Shown here: positions 7,016-29,411 of the stretch, piece after piece
Layout of the letters: each line of letters starts with the position of its first letter
Numbering within the stretch: position 1 is the first letter of the stretch
Virus record (IMG/VR): IMGVR_UViG_3300044729_001353
Span: 1 to 33,611 of that record
Reading direction: 5' to 3' (one strand)
Length of the DNA: 33,611 bases
Source: a virus
The notes under the pieces: model-generated
Seen by the model: the letters and a program-made list of their open reading frames with translations, nothing else
Told to the model about the DNA's origin: nothing
Databases searched by the model: none
Program-made: the position numbers and the translations under genes

Positions 7016-7037
7016 AAAGATATGCGAAAATTTAAAA

Positions 7038-7045
7038 CAAAAATA
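7038..7045 (-). promoter_or_regulatory. Candidate Bacteroidota -7 box for the head operon
   Basis: On the minus strand TATTTTTG matches the Bacteroidota sigma consensus TAnnTTTG. It is about 50 bases upstream of the first head gene, in an AT-rich region between divergent genes. I see no clear TTG element at the usual distance, so support is moderate. A similar but imperfect plus-strand box (TATATTTTG near 7059) could serve the plus-strand gene. Confidence 0.35.
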
Positions 7046-7130
7046 TCGTTTTTTTAAAATATATTTTGTAAGCGTGTGTTATATTATGAATACTCCAAAA
7101 GTCGTAGTGATTAAGATAAAAGGTGTAATA

Positions 7131-7340
7131 ATGGCAATAGATTGGATTCAAGTAGAAGACAACCCAATTCCAGATCACATGTATACTGATAGAGATAGTT
7201 TACTTCTTCAAGATGAAGATGGCTTCATTGGTATCGGATACTGGAACTCGTATGACTGGGTTTTAGAAATTCCTGGTTATTATTTTGCTAAGTATGATGC
7301 GCCTATATTTAATAAGATTAAAAGGTATGCATTTTTGTAA
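7131..7340 (+). CDS. Small Trp/Tyr-rich unknown protein, only plus-strand protein gene
   Basis: 69 residues, with ATG at 7131 preceded by AAAAGGTG about 5 bases upstream, a good Shine-Dalgarno. The open frame extends further upstream, but that part is AT-rich and unlikely to be translated. The sequence MAIDWIQVEDNPIPDHMYTD and WNSYDWVLEIPGYYFAKYDA recalls small DUF551-like proteins found in phages and hosts, whose role is unknown. It is the only protein gene I can support on this strand, and it leads into the tRNA-like gene 25 bases downstream. It may be a recently gained or host-takeover gene. Confidence 0.65.
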   Translation: MAIDWIQVEDNPIPDHMYTDRDSLLLQDEDGFIGIGYWNSYDWVLEIPGYYFAKYDAPIFNKIKRYAFL

Positions 7341-7365
7341 AAAACAAATAAACTGAATAATAATT

Positions 7366-7465
7366 AGTCAGGTGGCGGAATTGGTAGGCGCTATCTTATC
7401 CCAAGAGTAGCCGGTAGGGTCGGATAAACCACAAAGGCGTGCGGGTTCGAGTCCCGCCCTGACTA
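7366..7465 (+). tRNA. tRNA-like gene with tRNA-Leu-type D and T arms and oversized central region
   Basis: The ends are convincing. A perfect 7-bp acceptor stem pairs AGTCAGG (7366-7372) with CCTGACT (7458-7464), and A7465 is the discriminator. The D arm GCGGAATTGGTAGGCGC is the class II leucine type, and the T arm GCGGG-TTCGAGT-CCCGC is perfect. Between the D and T arms there are 49 bases where tRNA-Leu usually has about 33. No canonical 5-bp anticodon stem with a 7-base loop is clear. Options are a weak stem giving anticodon CCC, a 6-bp TTATCC/GGATAA stem with a 20-base loop, or a bulged CTATCTT/AAGAGTAG hairpin. CCA is not encoded. The isotype is undetermined, and a decayed or repurposed tRNA is possible. 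Confidence 0.6.
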
Positions 7466-7497
7466 CTAGGGTTCTCACACCTTCTAAAGTGATGACA

Positions 7498-7513
7498 CCT
7501 CGGAAAGACGAGG
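7498..7513 (+). other. Hairpin between tRNA-like gene and terminator
   Basis: A 5-bp stem CCTCG/CGAGG with loop GAAAGA, followed by ATTCTTTTA. It could be a weak terminator or part of a larger fold with the ACACCTT/AAGGTGT elements on either side (7477-7483, 7527-7533, 7551-7557). Confidence 0.4.
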
Positions 7514-7526
7514 ATTCTTTTATTGT

Positions 7527-7562
7527 AAGGTGTAAGGTATGATCTACTTTACACCTTTTTTT
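7527..7562 (+). terminator. Strong plus-strand intrinsic terminator of the gene/tRNA island
   Basis: A perfect 9-bp stem AAGGTGTAA (7527-7535) / TTACACCTT (7549-7557) followed by five T. It closes the plus-strand unit and overlaps the stop codon of the convergent minus-strand gene (7549). The upstream copy of ACACCTT at 7477-7483 can pair with the same left arm, an alternative that would prevent the terminator from forming. Confidence 0.85.
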
Positions 7563-18454: not shown

Positions 18455-21271
18455 TTAGCTAAATACTTGACTGTTTAAAATGACTTGACCCATGTCTACC
18501 GTGGCCGTTCCACCTTGTGCCGCTTCCGCTTTCCACGCCGTTGCCGTGCCGTTATACGTTAGCACATATCCGCTCGTAGGCGTTGGCGCATCAACGTCCG
18601 TTAAGTTATCCAAGGCAAGCGATACGATACCGCTCTGACCGTTGACGTTAATAACATTCGCATAGCTTACAACCTGTGATACATTTTGGTATCCGTTCGG
18701 GTTTGTGTTAGCATACGCACCGATGTCGTTAACATCTAGCACTACAACGCCTGACTTACCGTTAACGCTCACTACGTTGGCATAAGCTACTACTTGCGAA
18801 ACGTTCTGGTATCCAGCTGGATTAGTATTTGCGTATGCGCCTATCTGATCAACTGTTGGGAACGTAAGCGACGGGAAACGTGGATCTGTATTATTAACAC
18901 CGTCACCCGATAGCCCTAGCACTACGTTACGCGCATTCCATACGTTGGATGTGCTATTCCATACAATGCTTTGACCATTCGTTACACTTAGTACGTTGAC
19001 ATCATGCAGATCTTTTAGATCATCACTTAACCAAGGCCGAACATGTACGTTGACATTGTTGCCATCTATGCTAACGATTGCACACGTTGATAGCTTTAGA
19101 TTAGGCGCTATAGGCTCAACCTTTGTTAATCCACCCGCAACGGACGGGTCACAGTATAGTATATCACCCTCTGCCCAGGTTTCACCACCAGGCTGCTTTG
19201 CACTTAAACTTATGTTACGGAGTAATCCGAACCACGTTACAAATCCATCTGCACCAGCTGCTATGCTTTCAGTAACTAATCCTACAATTAACTTAGCTGG
19301 CAATGTTCCATCTGCTACCATACGCTTTATACGCAACTTGTTACCTTGCGCTGGCTGCGATGGGTCGACCATCACTACCGTACCACGCGTAAGCGTAATA
19401 GTATCAGCATTATAAACTAACGGATATAAGGTCTCCTGACCTATTTGTAATACCGTATCTGCTGTCTTGCCAAACTCTAGAGTTTTCTCTTCAAAGTTCC
19501 ATGATAGCTTAGCAATTCCAGGCGTTGCATTTACTGTCGTGCTAAACGTTGCCGTATCAATATTGATGTTTGATGTCCAGCTTGCATCTCCGTTGGTACT
19601 GCTATTCTTGGCAAGGATTTGATTAGTCGTACCACCTGGGTATACGTTAACAACACCTGATTGACCATTGACATTGATAACGTTAGCATAGCTTACGACC
19701 TGAGTAACATTCTGATACCCATTCGGATTCGTGTTCGAGTATGCACCGACGTCATCTGCATCTAATACTACTACGCCACTATATCCATTTACGCTCACTA
19801 CGTTAGCGTATGCTACAACTTGACTTACGTTTTGATAGCCTGCCGGGTTTGTGTTGCTGTAAGCACCTACATCGTCTGCATCTAAAACAACTATACCACT
19901 TTGACCATTGACGCTAACTACGTTGGCATAGGCTACAACCTGTGATACGTTCTGATAACCATTCGGATTCGTGTTCGAGTATGCCCCAATTTCGTCAAGC
20001 GTCGGGAAGCTAATGACAGGATTTTGCGGGTCGGTGTTATCTACCCCGTCACCACTTACGCTCTGTACGCCTCCAGCGCTTACGCTTTTGGCCTGCCACG
20101 CGCTTGCAGTTGCGTTGTAGATTAGGTACTGCCCTTCGGTTGCGTTCGTGGCTTGTACATCGTTTATGTCATCCATATTCAAGATGACAACGCCAGTCTG
20201 CCCGTTGACGCTATCGACGGCGCCACCGCCTACGCCTGCGCTCCAGGTGTTAGTCGTCGCATTGTACTTAAGCACGTCTCCTGTATTTGCAACACTTACA
20301 TTGACATTGCTTAGATCGTCTAGTCCTAATACGGCTATACCAGATTGTCCATTGACGCTAATAACATTAGCATAGGCTTGTACTTGGCTTATGTTTTGAT
20401 AGCCAGCTGGGTTTGTGTTTGCATAAGCTCCTATATCATCCGCATCCAGAACAACAATACCAGATTGACCATTGACAGATACAACATTGGCATAGCTTAC
20501 AACTTGACTAACATTTTGATACCCTGCTGGGTTCGTGTTACTATATGCCCCAACTTGTTCTAGTGTTGGGATGTTAATAACAGGATCGGCGCTTGTGCCT
20601 GATACCAACGTACCCGTGACGCTTTGCACGGGTGCTGCTGATGCTGCACCAGATGCATTTACAAAATTACTTGGATTTGTGTTCGAGTAAGCTCCTACAT
20701 CGTCAGCATCTAAAACAACGATACCAGATTGGCCGTTGACGGATACCACATTACCAACAGTACTAACTTGACTTATATTTATATATCCATTCGGATTTGT
20801 ATTTGAATAAGCGCCGACATCGTCCGCATCTAATACGACTACACCACTATATCCATTAACGCTTATTACGTTGGCGTACGATACAACTTGTGATACGTTT
20901 TGGTATCCATTCGGATTTGTATTAGCGTAAGCGCCAATGTCATCAGCGTCAAGTACCACAACACCAGTCTGCCCATTAACAGATACAACATTAGCCACAG
21001 CTTGCACCTGGCTTATGTTAGTGTATCCCTTGGGGTTTGTATTGCTATACGCCCCAACGTCGTCAGCATCTAAAACTATAATGCCTACTTTTCCATTAAC
21101 GCTATCAACAGCGCCTGCACCGTTACTCCAATACGTATCGTAACTTGCATTACTGTTCTTCTTAAGTACCTGTTCAGCTGTTCCGCCCGCAGGTACGCCT
21201 TGACCTGCTTGCCCTTGCTCGCCTACAGGTACAATTTCAACAATGTAATTGACGACATTTATGGTACTCAT
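18455..21271 (-). CDS. Repeat-built tail fibre with embedded globular domain
   Basis: 938 residues. The shaft is made of a roughly 40-residue unit with VSVNG..G.VVLDADDVGAY.NTNP.GYQN.SQV. I count 12 VNG motifs and 11 GAY(S/A)NTNP motifs in two blocks, about 55-560 and 780-900. Between them, about 570-760, lies a different domain (AKLSWNFEEKTLEFGK, LQIGQETLYPLVYN, GTVVMVDPS, GLVTESIAAGADGFVTWFGL, WAEGDILYCDP), a beta-rich type also seen in other phage fibres and decoration proteins. VNG.TG.V.L..DVGA repeats are known as trimeric fibre shafts. The N-terminus (about 1-25) should attach to the tail. Confidence 0.82.
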   Translation of the reverse strand: MSTINVVNYIVEIVPVGEQGQAGQGVPAGGTAEQVLKKNSNASYDTYWSNGAGAVDSVNGKVGIIVLDADDVGAYSNTNPKGYTNISQVQAVANVVSVNGQTGVVVLDADDIGAYANTNPNGYQNVSQVVSYANVISVNGYSGVVVLDADDVGAYSNTNPNGYINISQVSTVGNVVSVNGQSGIVVLDADDVGAYSNTNPSNFVNASGAASAAPVQSVTGTLVSGTSADPVINIPTLEQVGAYSNTNPAGYQNVSQVVSYANVVSVNGQSGIVVLDADDIGAYANTNPAGYQNISQVQAYANVISVNGQSGIAVLGLDDLSNVNVSVANTGDVLKYNATTNTWSAGVGGGAVDSVNGQTGVVILNMDDINDVQATNATEGQYLIYNATASAWQAKSVSAGGVQSVSGDGVDNTDPQNPVISFPTLDEIGAYSNTNPNGYQNVSQVVAYANVVSVNGQSGIVVLDADDVGAYSNTNPAGYQNVSQVVAYANVVSVNGYSGVVVLDADDVGAYSNTNPNGYQNVTQVVSYANVINVNGQSGVVNVYPGGTTNQILAKNSSTNGDASWTSNINIDTATFSTTVNATPGIAKLSWNFEEKTLEFGKTADTVLQIGQETLYPLVYNADTITLTRGTVVMVDPSQPAQGNKLRIKRMVADGTLPAKLIVGLVTESIAAGADGFVTWFGLLRNISLSAKQPGGETWAEGDILYCDPSVAGGLTKVEPIAPNLKLSTCAIVSIDGNNVNVHVRPWLSDDLKDLHDVNVLSVTNGQSIVWNSTSNVWNARNVVLGLSGDGVNNTDPRFPSLTFPTVDQIGAYANTNPAGYQNVSQVVAYANVVSVNGKSGVVVLDVNDIGAYANTNPNGYQNVSQVVSYANVINVNGQSGIVSLALDNLTDVDAPTPTSGYVLTYNGTATAWKAEAAQGGTATVDMGQVILNSQVFS
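18640..21150. repeat. Tandem degenerate about 120-bp repeats of the tail-fibre shaft
   Basis: Each protein unit of about 40 residues equals roughly 120 bp. Copies differ mostly at third codon positions, while short blocks are almost identical (for example the bases for GAYSNTNP). The embedded non-repeat domain interrupts them at about 18990-19560. Recombination between copies could change fibre length. Confidence 0.75.
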
Positions 21272-25597: not shown

Positions 25598-26541
25598 ATT
25601 AAGATTGTGTTCGTTTCCGTTCGTTTTACCCACTCATAATAGTAAGCCGTTGCCGACGATGTTGGCACTTGAAGATCTAGCTTGTATGGTGGAGTGTTAA
25701 TGTACTGCGCCTTGTGAAATAGGCCGTTAGCGTTGGTCGTAATGCCTGCATTATGATAGATATTAAAGTTATCTAACTCATGATACGCCGACGTACCCCA
25801 TGCGAAATTGAACGCTGTATCAATCTTCGTTGTTATGCCACGCTTCCACGCTGACCATAGTAGCGCCCACATGTCGGCGCACCATATTTGAAGCTCATGG
25901 TACTTCTCGATCTCTTGCTTTTTTTTATTGGATAGTTCGTTGATGTCCTTGAATAGTCGCTCGCTAAAGTACTCGACGCTATACCAGAATGGCGCGTCAA
26001 CGTTTTTCATAAGGTACTGTGCGCCAATGTCTTGATTGTCTTCGCTCTTGGCTTTGATCAGGTCTTGTCTGATGCCCATAATATCCATCATCGCATCAAG
26101 GACGTCTTGTCCTTTGCTTAAGATGTAATCATGCCCAATATACCAGCGTACATCCGATCCGTACCACTCATCACCGTCTAATAGGTCATCCGTTAGCCAC
26201 TCGTGCGGTGGCTTCGTGAATAACATATCACAGTCATGGTAAAAAATAATATCATCTTGAAGGTATGGATGTGCTTCCCAGTGTTGCCTTAAAATATTAG
26301 GCCGTATGCTGCTGATATAATTGCGATTCTTGCGCGTGTCGCAGTAGAAAAAGAATCGAGATGGATACGTCTCAGCCATGCGCTCCCAGATCGGTGGCAC
26401 AACGCACCCTTCTTTGTGACATACAATGTCAATGTGATTGGGATTGATGCCCATCGCGTAGAAGTTGGTGAGCATCGTTTCGATTTGCCATGCGTAATAG
26501 TCTGTAGCTGGCTGGGCGCACATGTATCTAAGCTGTTGCAT
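25594..26541 (-). CDS. Glycosyltransferase-like protein with DCD motif
   Basis: 315 residues with a GT-A-like layout: an N-terminal strand and helix region, DIVCHKEGC, RFFFYCDTRKNRNYISSIRP, then DDIIFYHDCDMLFTKPPHEW (DCD at 103-105 as metal/nucleotide-sugar site). A region with QDIGAQYLMKN, WCADMWALLWSAWKRG and a His-ended IYHNAGIT (possible last metal ligand) follow. I cannot place it in a known family with certainty. Its ATG overlaps the last base of the mucin-like tail protein gene by 1 base, so both are made together. Confidence 0.6.
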   Translation of the reverse strand: MQQLRYMCAQPATDYYAWQIETMLTNFYAMGINPNHIDIVCHKEGCVVPPIWERMAETYPSRFFFYCDTRKNRNYISSIRPNILRQHWEAHPYLQDDIIFYHDCDMLFTKPPHEWLTDDLLDGDEWYGSDVRWYIGHDYILSKGQDVLDAMMDIMGIRQDLIKAKSEDNQDIGAQYLMKNVDAPFWYSVEYFSERLFKDINELSNKKKQEIEKYHELQIWCADMWALLWSAWKRGITTKIDTAFNFAWGTSAYHELDNFNIYHNAGITTNANGLFHKAQYINTPPYKLDLQVPTSSATAYYYEWVKRTETNTILI

Positions 26542-29411
26542 TAACAGTCTCCTATATTATTAGGATCATTATTTACAATTTGCCCATTATTAGCAATTCT
26601 AGCAAATTGTTGGCTAGTATTGTCTGCATACCAGTTACCACCACCAGGATATACTGTGCCGATAGTATTTTGATAGAATTGTGTACATAGTTTAAATACA
26701 GCATTATCCCCATAAATAGTCTTAGGTCCATCACCAATACCAGCACATGCATTAGCTTTAGATGTTGCACTTTCATAAACATTAGTAAACGCTGTTAATC
26801 CAGCCAGCGTTGTGGTTGTCGTTGTACTTGTTGTTGTCGTTGTACTAGTAGTACTTGTACTAGTTGTACTTGTTGACGTCGTGCTTGTTGTTGTAGCTGG
26901 ACAATCTGCTGCATCATTATTTACTATTGTACCTGAATTAGATATACGTGCATATTGATTGCTTGGCCTATGCGCATACCAATCACTTCCGCCAATTGTT
27001 GGATTAATTCCTCCAGCGTCGTCATAAAATTGAGTACATAATTTGTATGTTGAATTATTACCCCATATAGTAAATGGTCCTGATGCGCCACCACCTGAGC
27101 AAGCATCTGCTGCTGATGTAGAACTTATATATACATTATCAAATTGAGTCAATCCTGCTTGGGTTGTAGTAGATGTAGTTGTCGTTGTCGGGAATGTATA
27201 TGACTGCGATGCCGTCCATGCTGATTGTTCATTAGGTGTCGTACACTGTTGTGCAATGCGTATGTATACCGTCCCTGATGTAAGTCCCGTACTTAAATTA
27301 GCAGGTGACGTACATCCAATTTGCTCTCCAAATGCAGGCGACCATGTAGCGTTGTCGCTTGAATATTGAGCTAATATACCATCACAATTGCCTGATCCTG
27401 ATGGTGTGAATGTAATGCTAAATGTACCACCTGATGTGTGGCTGATGCTTGTCAGCGTAGGCTCTGGACATGGTGGCTCCGTAGTCGTTGATGTTGTGCT
27501 TGTTGTTGACGTAGTCGAAGTTGTACTTGTAGTACTTGTTGTTGAAGTACTTGTACTTGTCGATGTTGTACTTGTCGATGTGCTTGTTGTTGTACCACAA
27601 GTACCCTGTGTTACTATCGCGCCACTGTTATTGATCTGACGCCAACATGTGCCGTCGCTGTAGTAATTATTATTACCCTGGAATGGGTCGCCTGTGCTGT
27701 TGCTAGCATAGAATAATGTTGCATTACAAAACACAGGATTGTTAGCCCATATCGTGACTGTTCCAGGCGTTTCCGTACATGCTGCAACTCCACTTACGCT
27801 AGACTGACGAAGCGTATTAAATTCCGTTAATGCTTGCGTTGTTGTTGACGTCGTGGATGTTGTGCTAGTAGTACTTGTTGTACTTGTCGTCGATGTTGTA
27901 CTTGTAGACGTTGTTGAAGTCGTACTTGTAGTAGTTGTCGTAGTTGGCGAAGTTCCAGCACCTAACTGATACGCACGTACCGTGACCTTATCGCTCATAA
28001 AGTCATAGCTTAGCGACGATGGTCGAAAGATCTTATCTTGATAGCGTGTAGGCACGCTTTGATCAAATACGAACGGCTGATGAGGCTTAAGCTTTTCGGC
28101 TCCGATCATCTCAAATTCGATCGTGTATATGTTACGTTCGGCATATGTTATACCTAATGGCGGTGCATACGCATTAGTAGCCGTGCGCGCCAGATCTTGA
28201 ACGTATGGATCAAGGTAATCTTGTCTAGTGATATCGCTAGAGAATGCAGTGCTATTTGATATGTACGTATACTGCGCATTCGATTCAAGACCGCCAATAA
28301 CAAAGAATGGCGTATAGCCAGTGTACGTTATATCAAGTGCCTGTGGTGCGTCCTGCCACGCTCTAAATAAAACAACGTTTGCATCTTTAGGTCTAAACGG
28401 TGCCATAATTGAATCACCAAAAGCACCTACATCGTAGGTATATTGCAGTGAATTTATGTACCTACCTACACGCTGAAACGATATATCAACTAGATCATTA
28501 TTCGTTAGCGTTACTTGGTTATCTTTATCCTGCCTATTTACATAAAAATTGATGTTGAATGCGCTGCCAAAGATTGCGCCTTCCATAGCTGCAAATATAC
28601 GTACCTTGTCAAATGCTAAATCGGTATTAAAAAAGTTAGTTTTTGGCGGATCAAAGTTAAAGTTAGGCACGTAGGTACCTGCGCCATAATTAATGATCTC
28701 ATCTCGCCTTGGGAATGCGCCATAGTTAACGTTAGTATATGACTGCCCACCAAAGTTAATTGTTTCCCACTTACCTATATTTGACTTTGACTTATATATA
28801 TTTTGATTGCCTGCGCCTTTGTATTGTAAGCTAACAACGTCATAAATGAAATCGCCAGTTAGCACTATAGATGAGCTTGTATAAACGCCTAATAAGCTTG
28901 GATTCGTCCCAGCCGTGTAATCGGCTTGCGGTATAGTGTTTGCTGAATATATCGAGGCACGCGTTGCACGCCATTGATCAATCGTCAAGTTGCTATATTG
29001 AGGATTAAGTTTGATCGATATATGACTAGATCGTTCATCATATTGAAGATCGTTATACTGGATCTTAAACGGGAAACGGTAAACCGTGCCTGGATTTGTC
29101 CTTGAGTGTAGCACTAAGTTGACATTGCATGTAGGAACAAGGTACCAATCAAGTACGCTATAAACACCAAGCGTTGTTTCGAGCACCTGAAACATGCTGC
29201 CCATATTAGACAGCTTATCCACCGCCTTGATTGTCATGCTGCCTGGAATGGCTGCTACGTATGTAAGCTGATCTTCGCTTGTGACTAGATCAAAATCATA
29301 ATCAAGCGATGACATATCAATGATGTCAAAGTTGGTATCGCTACCCGGAACGTCTATATCAAACGATATAACGCCTGCTCTTGATTGAATATTTGTAGCT
29401 ATTAAGCTCAC
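26541..29411 (-). CDS. Large tail protein with mucin-like Thr/Ser tracts and three repeated Cys-containing domains
   Basis: 956 residues. The first 490 or so are a tail-structural region: N-terminal beta domain, ...VYRFPFKIQYNDLQYDERSSHISIKLNPQYS, and a segment with EFEMIGAEKLKPHQPFVFDQ. Four Thr/Ser tracts follow (DNA about 27835-27960, 27478-27600, 27170-27195, 26808-26905). Three related Cys-containing domains sit near residues 527-604, 753-835 and 869-956 (patterns LT.F..VY..., TIW..N, CTQFY, WYA...Q.ARI.N.G.IVNND). A fibronectin-like domain is at about 645-740. The start is a GTG with GTGA overlap. Probably a tail-tip, host-contact protein. Confidence 0.75.
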   Translation of the reverse strand: MSLIATNIQSRAGVISFDIDVPGSDTNFDIIDMSSLDYDFDLVTSEDQLTYVAAIPGSMTIKAVDKLSNMGSMFQVLETTLGVYSVLDWYLVPTCNVNLVLHSRTNPGTVYRFPFKIQYNDLQYDERSSHISIKLNPQYSNLTIDQWRATRASIYSANTIPQADYTAGTNPSLLGVYTSSSIVLTGDFIYDVVSLQYKGAGNQNIYKSKSNIGKWETINFGGQSYTNVNYGAFPRRDEIINYGAGTYVPNFNFDPPKTNFFNTDLAFDKVRIFAAMEGAIFGSAFNINFYVNRQDKDNQVTLTNNDLVDISFQRVGRYINSLQYTYDVGAFGDSIMAPFRPKDANVVLFRAWQDAPQALDITYTGYTPFFVIGGLESNAQYTYISNSTAFSSDITRQDYLDPYVQDLARTATNAYAPPLGITYAERNIYTIEFEMIGAEKLKPHQPFVFDQSVPTRYQDKIFRPSSLSYDFMSDKVTVRAYQLGAGTSPTTTTTTSTTSTTSTSTTSTTSTTSTTSTTSTTSTTTQALTEFNTLRQSSVSGVAACTETPGTVTIWANNPVFCNATLFYASNSTGDPFQGNNNYYSDGTCWRQINNSGAIVTQGTCGTTTSTSTSTTSTSTSTSTTSTTSTTSTTSTTSTTSTTTEPPCPEPTLTSISHTSGGTFSITFTPSGSGNCDGILAQYSSDNATWSPAFGEQIGCTSPANLSTGLTSGTVYIRIAQQCTTPNEQSAWTASQSYTFPTTTTTSTTTQAGLTQFDNVYISSTSAADACSGGGASGPFTIWGNNSTYKLCTQFYDDAGGINPTIGGSDWYAHRPSNQYARISNSGTIVNNDAADCPATTTSTTSTSTTSTSTTSTTTTTSTTTTTTLAGLTAFTNVYESATSKANACAGIGDGPKTIYGDNAVFKLCTQFYQNTIGTVYPGGGNWYADNTSQQFARIANNGQIVNNDPNNIGDC
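26808..26905. repeat. Thr/Ser-coding trinucleotide tract 4
   Basis: A run of GTN/GAC-type triplets, mostly GTT, GTA and GTC on the plus strand, encodes an almost pure Thr/Ser stretch of about 30 residues between the second and third Cys-containing domains. It is a slippage-prone microsatellite. Confidence 0.8.
27478..27600. repeat. Thr/Ser-coding trinucleotide tract 2
   Basis: The longest tract, about 40 residues of Thr and Ser, between the first Cys-containing domain and the fibronectin-like domain. Synonymous codons vary (GTT, GTA, GTC, GAC, GAT on the plus strand), so the peptide composition rather than the DNA repeat seems selected. Confidence 0.8.
27835..27960. repeat. Thr/Ser-coding trinucleotide tract 1
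   Basis: A run of about 40 Thr/Ser codons linking the N-terminal tail-structural part to the first Cys-containing domain. Same triplet style as the other tracts. Confidence 0.8.

Follow-up and report, generated by a model that had tools for sequence, protein, structure and literature searches.

The window, that is, the whole stretch of DNA that was analysed (33,611 bases), is a phage record in IMG/VR, and its minus strand carries genes for the terminase, portal, protease and capsid. The best-listed named relatives of the terminase are Salinibacter phages, with 27% identity, and relatives of the stretch that holds the element described below were looked for in named phages and none was found. 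Two large minus-strand open reading frames (18455-21271 and 26541-29411) have many internal repeats that are nearly identical to one another (VSVNGQSGIVVLDADD...), as well as long stretches of Thr/Ser. On the plus strand, a tRNA-like element (7366-7465) sits in a small unit that is closed by a terminator-like hairpin of 13 pairs with a T run (7527-7557). Directly upstream of the element lies an open reading frame of 69 amino acids (7131-7340, plus strand), which is possibly co-transcribed with it and has no match in Pfam or PHROGs at an E value of 0.001. Further upstream on the same strand, the stretch at 7036-7085 may contain a promoter; the sigma-70-like matches at 7031-7060 are weak.

The acceptor, D and T arms of the element are intact, as the preliminary description had held. 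The 5' strand of the acceptor stem, AGTCAGG (7366-7372), forms seven of seven pairs with CCTGACT (7458-7464), which is followed by the discriminator A73 (7465) and then by C74, as seen from the sequence and from the alignment to the Rfam tRNA model. From the same two sources, positions 8-9 (TG) and a tRNA-Leu-type D arm, GCGGAATTGGTAGGCGC, are assigned to 7373-7391, the D arm itself being GCG-GAATTGGTAGG-CGC (7375-7391) with a three-pair stem and a tRNA-Leu-type loop. The T arm, GCGGG-TTCGAGT-CCCGC (7441-7457), has five of five pairs. The 49 nucleotides between the D and T arms (7392-7440), referred to here as the payload, end with the T of position 48 and replace the anticodon arm and the ordinary variable arm; the excess length noticed earlier is genuine, given that canonical-arm tRNA-Leu genes have 23-37 bases by the same measure. 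The element thus has the three arms and the conserved elbow of a tRNA and lacks its anticodon arm (5 bp, 7-nt loop, U33). The covariance check that had been proposed gave 34.6 bits (E 7.2e-6 on a 261-base stretch) with the Rfam tRNA model, whose gathering score is 29, while a fast-filter Rfam scan of the whole window reported nothing, and the proposed ARAGORN run returned neither a tRNA nor a tmRNA in the window (0 matches). The fold energy of the whole element stretch is ordinary (z -0.23).

Competing stems are indeed present in the middle, none of them canonical. TTATCC (7396-7401) can pair with GGATAA (7422-7427) to give stem S1 of a possible pseudoknot, and GCC (7410-7412) can pair with GGC (7436-7438) to give a possible variable-arm stem, whose 3' strand stops 2 nt short of the T stem, in the register with the strongest enrichment across the class. 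It is plausible that S1 and the variable-arm stem could coexist as an H-type pseudoknot in the family of the window, for which the assessment, made on the sibling L004 as representative, gave p 0.12, not significant when taken alone. The proposed reading of U33-CCC as an anticodon finds no support, given that the relatives L004 and L024, which have the same middle as the window and show two substitutions in the element, also fail the test for a canonical arm described below.

The DNA upstream in L004 and L024 matches the window as far as 7104, with 7036-7085 identical in the three loci and similar in L358. These two siblings carry two elements where the window has the 69-residue open reading frame, absent from both, and one element, and from 7440 on the window can be aligned to the last element in L004/L024 and the DNA behind it, including the terminator-like hairpin. 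The T arm is also the junction between the window and the sibling loci. In L358, both sides are present and 40 bp without an element replace 7118-7554 of the window. By eye, this 40-bp stretch contains another hairpin and then a T run, so that the island may encode a further small RNA there. The comparison establishes, at the level of sequence, that the element has been gained, lost or doubled at this locus. Since the siblings double or lack it, with a junction at the T arm, the element is to be regarded as accessory, with the T arm as the apparent junction point at the locus of the window. Among relatives of the terminase, 26 of 29 were examined, several of which extend little upstream, and elements were found only in two records, both of them the siblings L004/L024.

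The element is a member of a large class, whose common scaffold in IMG/VR combines the AGTCAGG acceptor, the T arm ACAGG-TTCGAAT-CCTGT and A73. A first scan, with the exact pattern of the D arm, 40-60 free bases and the T arm, gave 33 stretches in IMG/VR; a five-pair anticodon stem is missing from 31 of them, and U33 from the remaining two. The same pattern gave 37 matches in 84,980 bacterial and archaeal genomes, 34 of them with an ordinary five-pair arm. The one non-canonical element among these cellular matches, L070 from Hallella bergensis, has the acceptor GCTTTGG and is the same element as L007 of IMG/VR. Three further scans were made, two yielding minimum counts and the third 74 stretches; because the third pattern allows gaps from 40 bases, ordinary tRNAs with AGTCAGG should have been caught. 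Altogether, at least 535 elements, at least 461 of them unique, were collected from at least 280 viral loci, some of which are parts of one contig. Among the matches listed, 132 of 280 loci have at least two elements and 29 at least four, up to a maximum of 10. The counts based on 461 elements exclude the cellular loci L035-L071 as well as L034 and L179-L189, and they describe the AGTCAGG scaffold only, because the detector accepted an element only if its arms paired and the 3' strand of its acceptor could pair with AGTCAGG. A second T-arm-like stretch is found in 12 of the 461, which may span two genes, and the sequences are mostly metagenomic, in which repeated arms could produce chimeric joins.

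The canonical-arm test (5-bp stem, 7-nt loop, U33 and purine 37) is passed by 5 of the 461 unique elements, with 2.7 expected from shuffled inserts. As a positive control, 567 of 733 ARAGORN tRNAs that do not overlap elements in 279 loci pass the same test, compared with 6 of the 114 ARAGORN calls that do overlap them; without this split, 573 of 847 ARAGORN genes in these loci have the canonical arm. The AGTCAGG acceptor occurs in 4 of the 573 canonical-arm tRNA genes, and ARAGORN genes with this acceptor lack the canonical arm in 98 of 102 cases, with 4 passing. There are also short members, with only 35-38 nt between the acceptor and the T stem (6 of 461), the shortest element that passes the test having 39. 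Had the copy in the window been just damaged or misassembled, homologues with an ordinary tRNA-Leu anticodon arm would be expected; both same-middle homologues and 456 of the 461 scaffold relatives are without one. L084/L163 have a correctly placed 5-bp stem and 7-nt loop without U33.

With regard to the tRNA body, the acceptor AGTCAGG is found in 433 of 461 unique elements, a proportion that the search patterns and the detector favoured, together with A73 in 414, G73 in 32, C74 in 453 and T at position -1 in 411. T at position 48, which usually partners A15, ends 123 of 127 unique non-canonical middles (three of the 127 come from the chromosomal loci L180-L182); T48 with A15 is a tRNA-Leu-like feature. 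Alternative acceptors are changed on both strands (GAACGGG/CCCGTTC, AACAAGG/CCTTGTT and TACCAGG/CCTGGTA). The D arm is altered or absent in some members, and for this reason the constant unit is taken to be the half made of the acceptor and the T arm. Queries with the scaffold gave partial matches in 308 records (best 60 of 308 listed) and in 33 records, five of which were inspected. Non-canonical elements on related scaffolds were found in MW202828.1 (60.9 kb, Manatee Spring) and in the 735-kb LR756501.1, and none in the crAss-like cr4_1. The gene found in MT835839.1 is a tRNA-Leu, and the fifth record, Tenacibaculum phage pT24, is taken up below. The payload of MW202828.1 is identical to that of L230 at 56 of 58 bases, on a different, fully paired acceptor (AGTGCAG/CTGCACT), and the single blastn match of this record to each of five relatives covers the element and up to about 12 nt more.

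On one scaffold, the 459 unique inner sequences fall into 334 sequence clusters, 257 of which are singletons. The inserts are not random. Of 140 representatives whose D arm is of the standard kind, 73 have a stem of -6 kcal/mol or below with its end precisely two bases short of the T stem, which is also where class II tRNAs end their variable arm; shuffling gives 20. The neighbouring offsets of 0, 1, 3, 4, 5 and 6 bases give 32, 37, 56, 47, 32 and 25, against 18-22 when shuffled (21 for offset 3 and 20 for offset 4), and at another threshold the two-base register gives 61 of 104 against 25. The inserts therefore look structured, with a putative variable-arm stem in the class II register. Complementarity between the loop of the variable arm and the segment standing in for the anticodon arm exceeds expectation, with p <= 0.05 in 10 of 60 cases and in 3 when the loops are swapped. 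Tests of the pseudoknot, which was first noticed by eye, gave Fisher p 8e-7 (n=49) and 5e-6 (n=60), the loop-swapped control of the latter being mildly non-uniform (KS p 0.04), which indicates that some members of the class tend statistically towards a predicted H-type pseudoknot. The family L222/L150/L259/L159 retains both stems, with one pair altered on both sides. Covariation was examined in the 22 families of at least three members, where RNAalifold found 23 covarying pairs against 6.4 in column-shuffled alignments. These pairs fall in 11 families, with zero in the other 11, and the aligned part takes in the D arm. In the largest family, with 11 of its 12 members aligned, there are two pairs changed on both sides and no broken cells.

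The same inserts recur in different phages. Pairs with the same payload were compared in 13 of the 18 multi-member clusters (21 pairs; the clusters outside the comparison are L018/L118, L022/L154, L150/L074, L128/L098 and L180/L181), and 5 of the 21 pairs turned out to be the same or sibling phages. For all 16 pairs from different contexts, the best blastn match consists of the element and up to about 26 nt, with 79-97% identity. The flanks of these 16 pairs, taken up to 3 kb, give weaker scattered matches of 27-128 nt among the first six matches per pair, and most of these look like arms of other elements. Other ARAGORN tRNAs are present in 124 of 279 element-bearing loci and absent from the other 155.

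Complementarity of the payloads to several candidate targets was also measured. Exact antisense matches of 358 payloads to their own locus show no overall excess (mean z 0.12, s.e. 0.08), and those of at least 14 nt occur for 3 of the 358, the longest being 23 nt (L234). No antisense excess was found either for 296 payloads against the 16S/23S loci of Hallella or against 733 phage tRNAs. In the sense direction, 40 of the 296 payloads match tRNAs over at least 12 nt, against 18 when shuffled, and because this similarity is raised, some payloads may derive from tRNA sequence.

As far as sequence comparison can establish them, the scaffold, the absence of a canonical anticodon arm and the conservation of some inserts across contexts, with covarying stems in half of the families examined, are firm. 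We consider it rather probable that the element is a phage non-coding RNA gene in which a natural tRNA scaffold carries a variable insert as the effector. The acceptor stem, the T arm and mostly the D arm are retained, and the insert would replace the anticodon arm and remodel the variable arm. The elbow and the acceptor would let the transcript mature like a tRNA, through RNase P, RNase Z and CCA addition, and the tRNA top half would protect or stabilise it; aminoacylation and EF-Tu binding might also take place, and the tRNA-like RNA would be incapable of decoding. The insert, differing widely between elements, would then be the effector. Because the inserts look structured, recur across contexts and show no antisense excess, each of them most likely binds a protein, a reading that leans on the negative antisense tests. 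The insert could, for example, act as a decoy or an inhibitor of a host factor that differs from one host to another, a defence or toxin RNase being one candidate.

The roles of the two parts could also be reversed, with the tRNA part active, titrating LeuRS, EF-Tu, RNase P or a tRNA-modifying enzyme, or supplying Leu-tRNA outside translation, and the middle serving as a free spacer. It is the acceptor and the T arm that form the constant part, A73 and T48 are usually retained and LeuRS is not known to read the anticodon, all of which would agree with a decoy or an amino-acid carrier. Nonetheless, this is unlikely, given that covarying stems in half of the 22 families, the stem register and the identity across contexts make the middles look constrained, that some members have a changed or missing D arm and 32 of 461 have G73, and that such a variety of inserts would be needless for a decoy. 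If the insert is the active part, it could instead be an antisense guide, in which a loop or linker displayed on the tRNA scaffold pairs with RNA of the host or of a rival phage. Hypervariable inserts, the enlarged loops and single-stranded linker of many members, and the three payloads that match their own locus over at least 14 nt would be expected from such guides, and yet we hold this to be quite unlikely in view of the lack of an overall excess against the own locus, the 16S/23S of one host and the 733 phage tRNAs.

That the element is a decaying tRNA had been suggested from the outset, and more generally the class could be decaying or recombinant tRNA genes, the debris of phage tRNA arrays kept through recombination at the arms. 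The other tRNAs in nearly half of the loci, the T-arm junction at the locus of the window and the sense similarity of some payloads to tRNAs are what such debris would leave behind. This fits badly with the intact arms, which are partly a matter of selection by a detector that demands pairing arms, with the covariation in part of the families and with the same middle being conserved where the flanks fail to align; furthermore, some members have an acceptor with both of its strands altered, and ordinary AGTCAGG tRNAs, the expected source, are rare (4 of 573). The debris reading is thus improbable. The least probable of the readings, which we regard as highly doubtful, is that these are functional tRNAs in which a small intron or another unusual maturation restores the anticodon arm. 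The middles are often longer than normal, and L084/L163 have the right-placed stem and loop mentioned above; against this, the short members leave only 35-38 nt, the would-be intron is used by the variable-arm stem, and informal inspection brought up neither an anticodon nor a splice signal common to the members. As regards the preliminary description as a whole, its tRNA mimic fits and is extended to a large class, its decaying tRNA fits badly, and its tRNA with an insertion agrees with the geometry of the element and disagrees with a class that includes the short members.

Returning to the effector reading, a broader form of it can be put forward only tentatively. Phages might hold a large and largely virus-specific repertoire of 'tRNA-displayed' RNA effectors, in which a private tRNA top half would be a tag for maturation and stability and exchangeable, structured and often pseudoknotted inserts would inhibit host proteins, for example defence or toxin RNases. 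The arrays would then correspond, at the level of RNA, to the anti-defence islands known for proteins, and recombination at the T arm that the elements have in common would reshuffle them.

Mimicry of tRNAs is in itself a familiar phenomenon, and several systems resemble the elements in part. In tmRNA (SsrA), the upper half of a tRNA likewise carries another RNA domain, and a tag reading frame sets it apart from the phage elements. Rfam reported no tmRNA family in the window or in 12 array loci. A tag-like mini-ORF reading of the middles was set aside by eye. YrlA, in which a tRNA-like module is joined to another domain, works with Ro60/Rsr; the phage elements have a comparable two-part layout, and TROVE proteins, looked for in 40 records with elements, many of which are fragmentary, turned up in 1, although the host could encode one. 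On the element of the window, the bacterial Y RNA (YrlA) model gave 12.7 bits, over the T arm only, against a cut-off of 69. The RNA antitoxins of type III toxin-antitoxin systems (ToxI) are small protein-inhibiting pseudoknots encoded as tandem repeats beside the toxin gene; they are without a tRNA scaffold, and their resemblance to the phage elements is speculative. tRNA-Sec, tRNA-Pyl and mitochondrial tRNAs are decoding tRNAs. These natural non-canonical tRNAs also depart from the standard cloverleaf, as covered in the review PMC7609411, from whose text the words 'phage' and 'virus' are absent. According to PMC3985003, tmRNA is processed by RNase P and charged with alanine. The engineered tRNA scaffold keeps the acceptor, T and D arms and has the anticodon stem-loop swapped for an RNA of interest, which leads to stable expression (PMC3753655). 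Its layout is that of the phage elements, where the tRNA arms are likewise constant and the insert changes freely, with the difference that it is man-made, whereas the elements are natural and viral and have hundreds of inserts. GOLLD and ROOL are phage non-coding RNAs often found near tRNA islands that, unlike the elements, are much longer, have their own covariance models and form cages (PMC12286853). The GOLLD covariance model has no match in the window, the elements were matched by the tRNA family only in the stretches searched with Rfam, and the 12 array loci gave, besides tRNA, one GOLLD (L259) and nothing else. This GOLLD RNA (1293-1710 of L259) lies in a tRNA-rich, element-bearing locus, and a tRNA match starts 8 bases after its end.

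tRNA, tmRNA and Y RNA each differ from the class in a defining feature, and no description of such a class was found in the open-access literature, with subscription journals and bioRxiv lying outside the search. Together, these results point to a class of viral non-coding RNA that has so far gone undescribed. If this is true, many RNAs in some phage 'tRNA arrays' serve purposes other than translation, and current tools either miss such RNAs or call them tRNAs with doubtful anticodons, as in the set where 4 of 102 pass the arm test. It would also mean that the laboratory stabilisation trick has a natural version, that a catalogue of hundreds of RNA inserts exchanged by phages is at hand, and that questions about the function of tRNAs in phages, about tRNA-gene counts and about counter-defence by RNA can be put directly to the test.

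Other departures from the standard tRNA were seen along the way. Two of the 37 cellular matches are tRNA-Leu(CAG) genes with a tandemly duplicated anticodon arm (L042 95-179, Xanthomonas populi; L052 2627-2709, a Hydrogenophilales MAG), and a proteobacterial MAG has the anticodon TGG on tRNA-Leu-type arms (L050 5122-5194). A search of 395 genomes from the phylum of Hallella gave 4 with a match, Hallella itself among them. In 3 of the 395, tRNA-Leu-like stretches (L180 1491-1600, L181 150-258 and L182 1495-1606) have the anticodon arm apparently replaced by a long hairpin and an ordinary-looking variable arm; ARAGORN calls none of them, and the neighbours of L180 are chromosomal-type genes. In Tenacibaculum phage pT24 (L184 1778-2735), a cluster on other scaffolds is annotated as tRNA-Sup, tRNA-Undet, tRNA-Pro and tRNA-Undet, and both tRNA-Undet copies have identical unusual anticodon regions, which makes this cluster no more than a lead.
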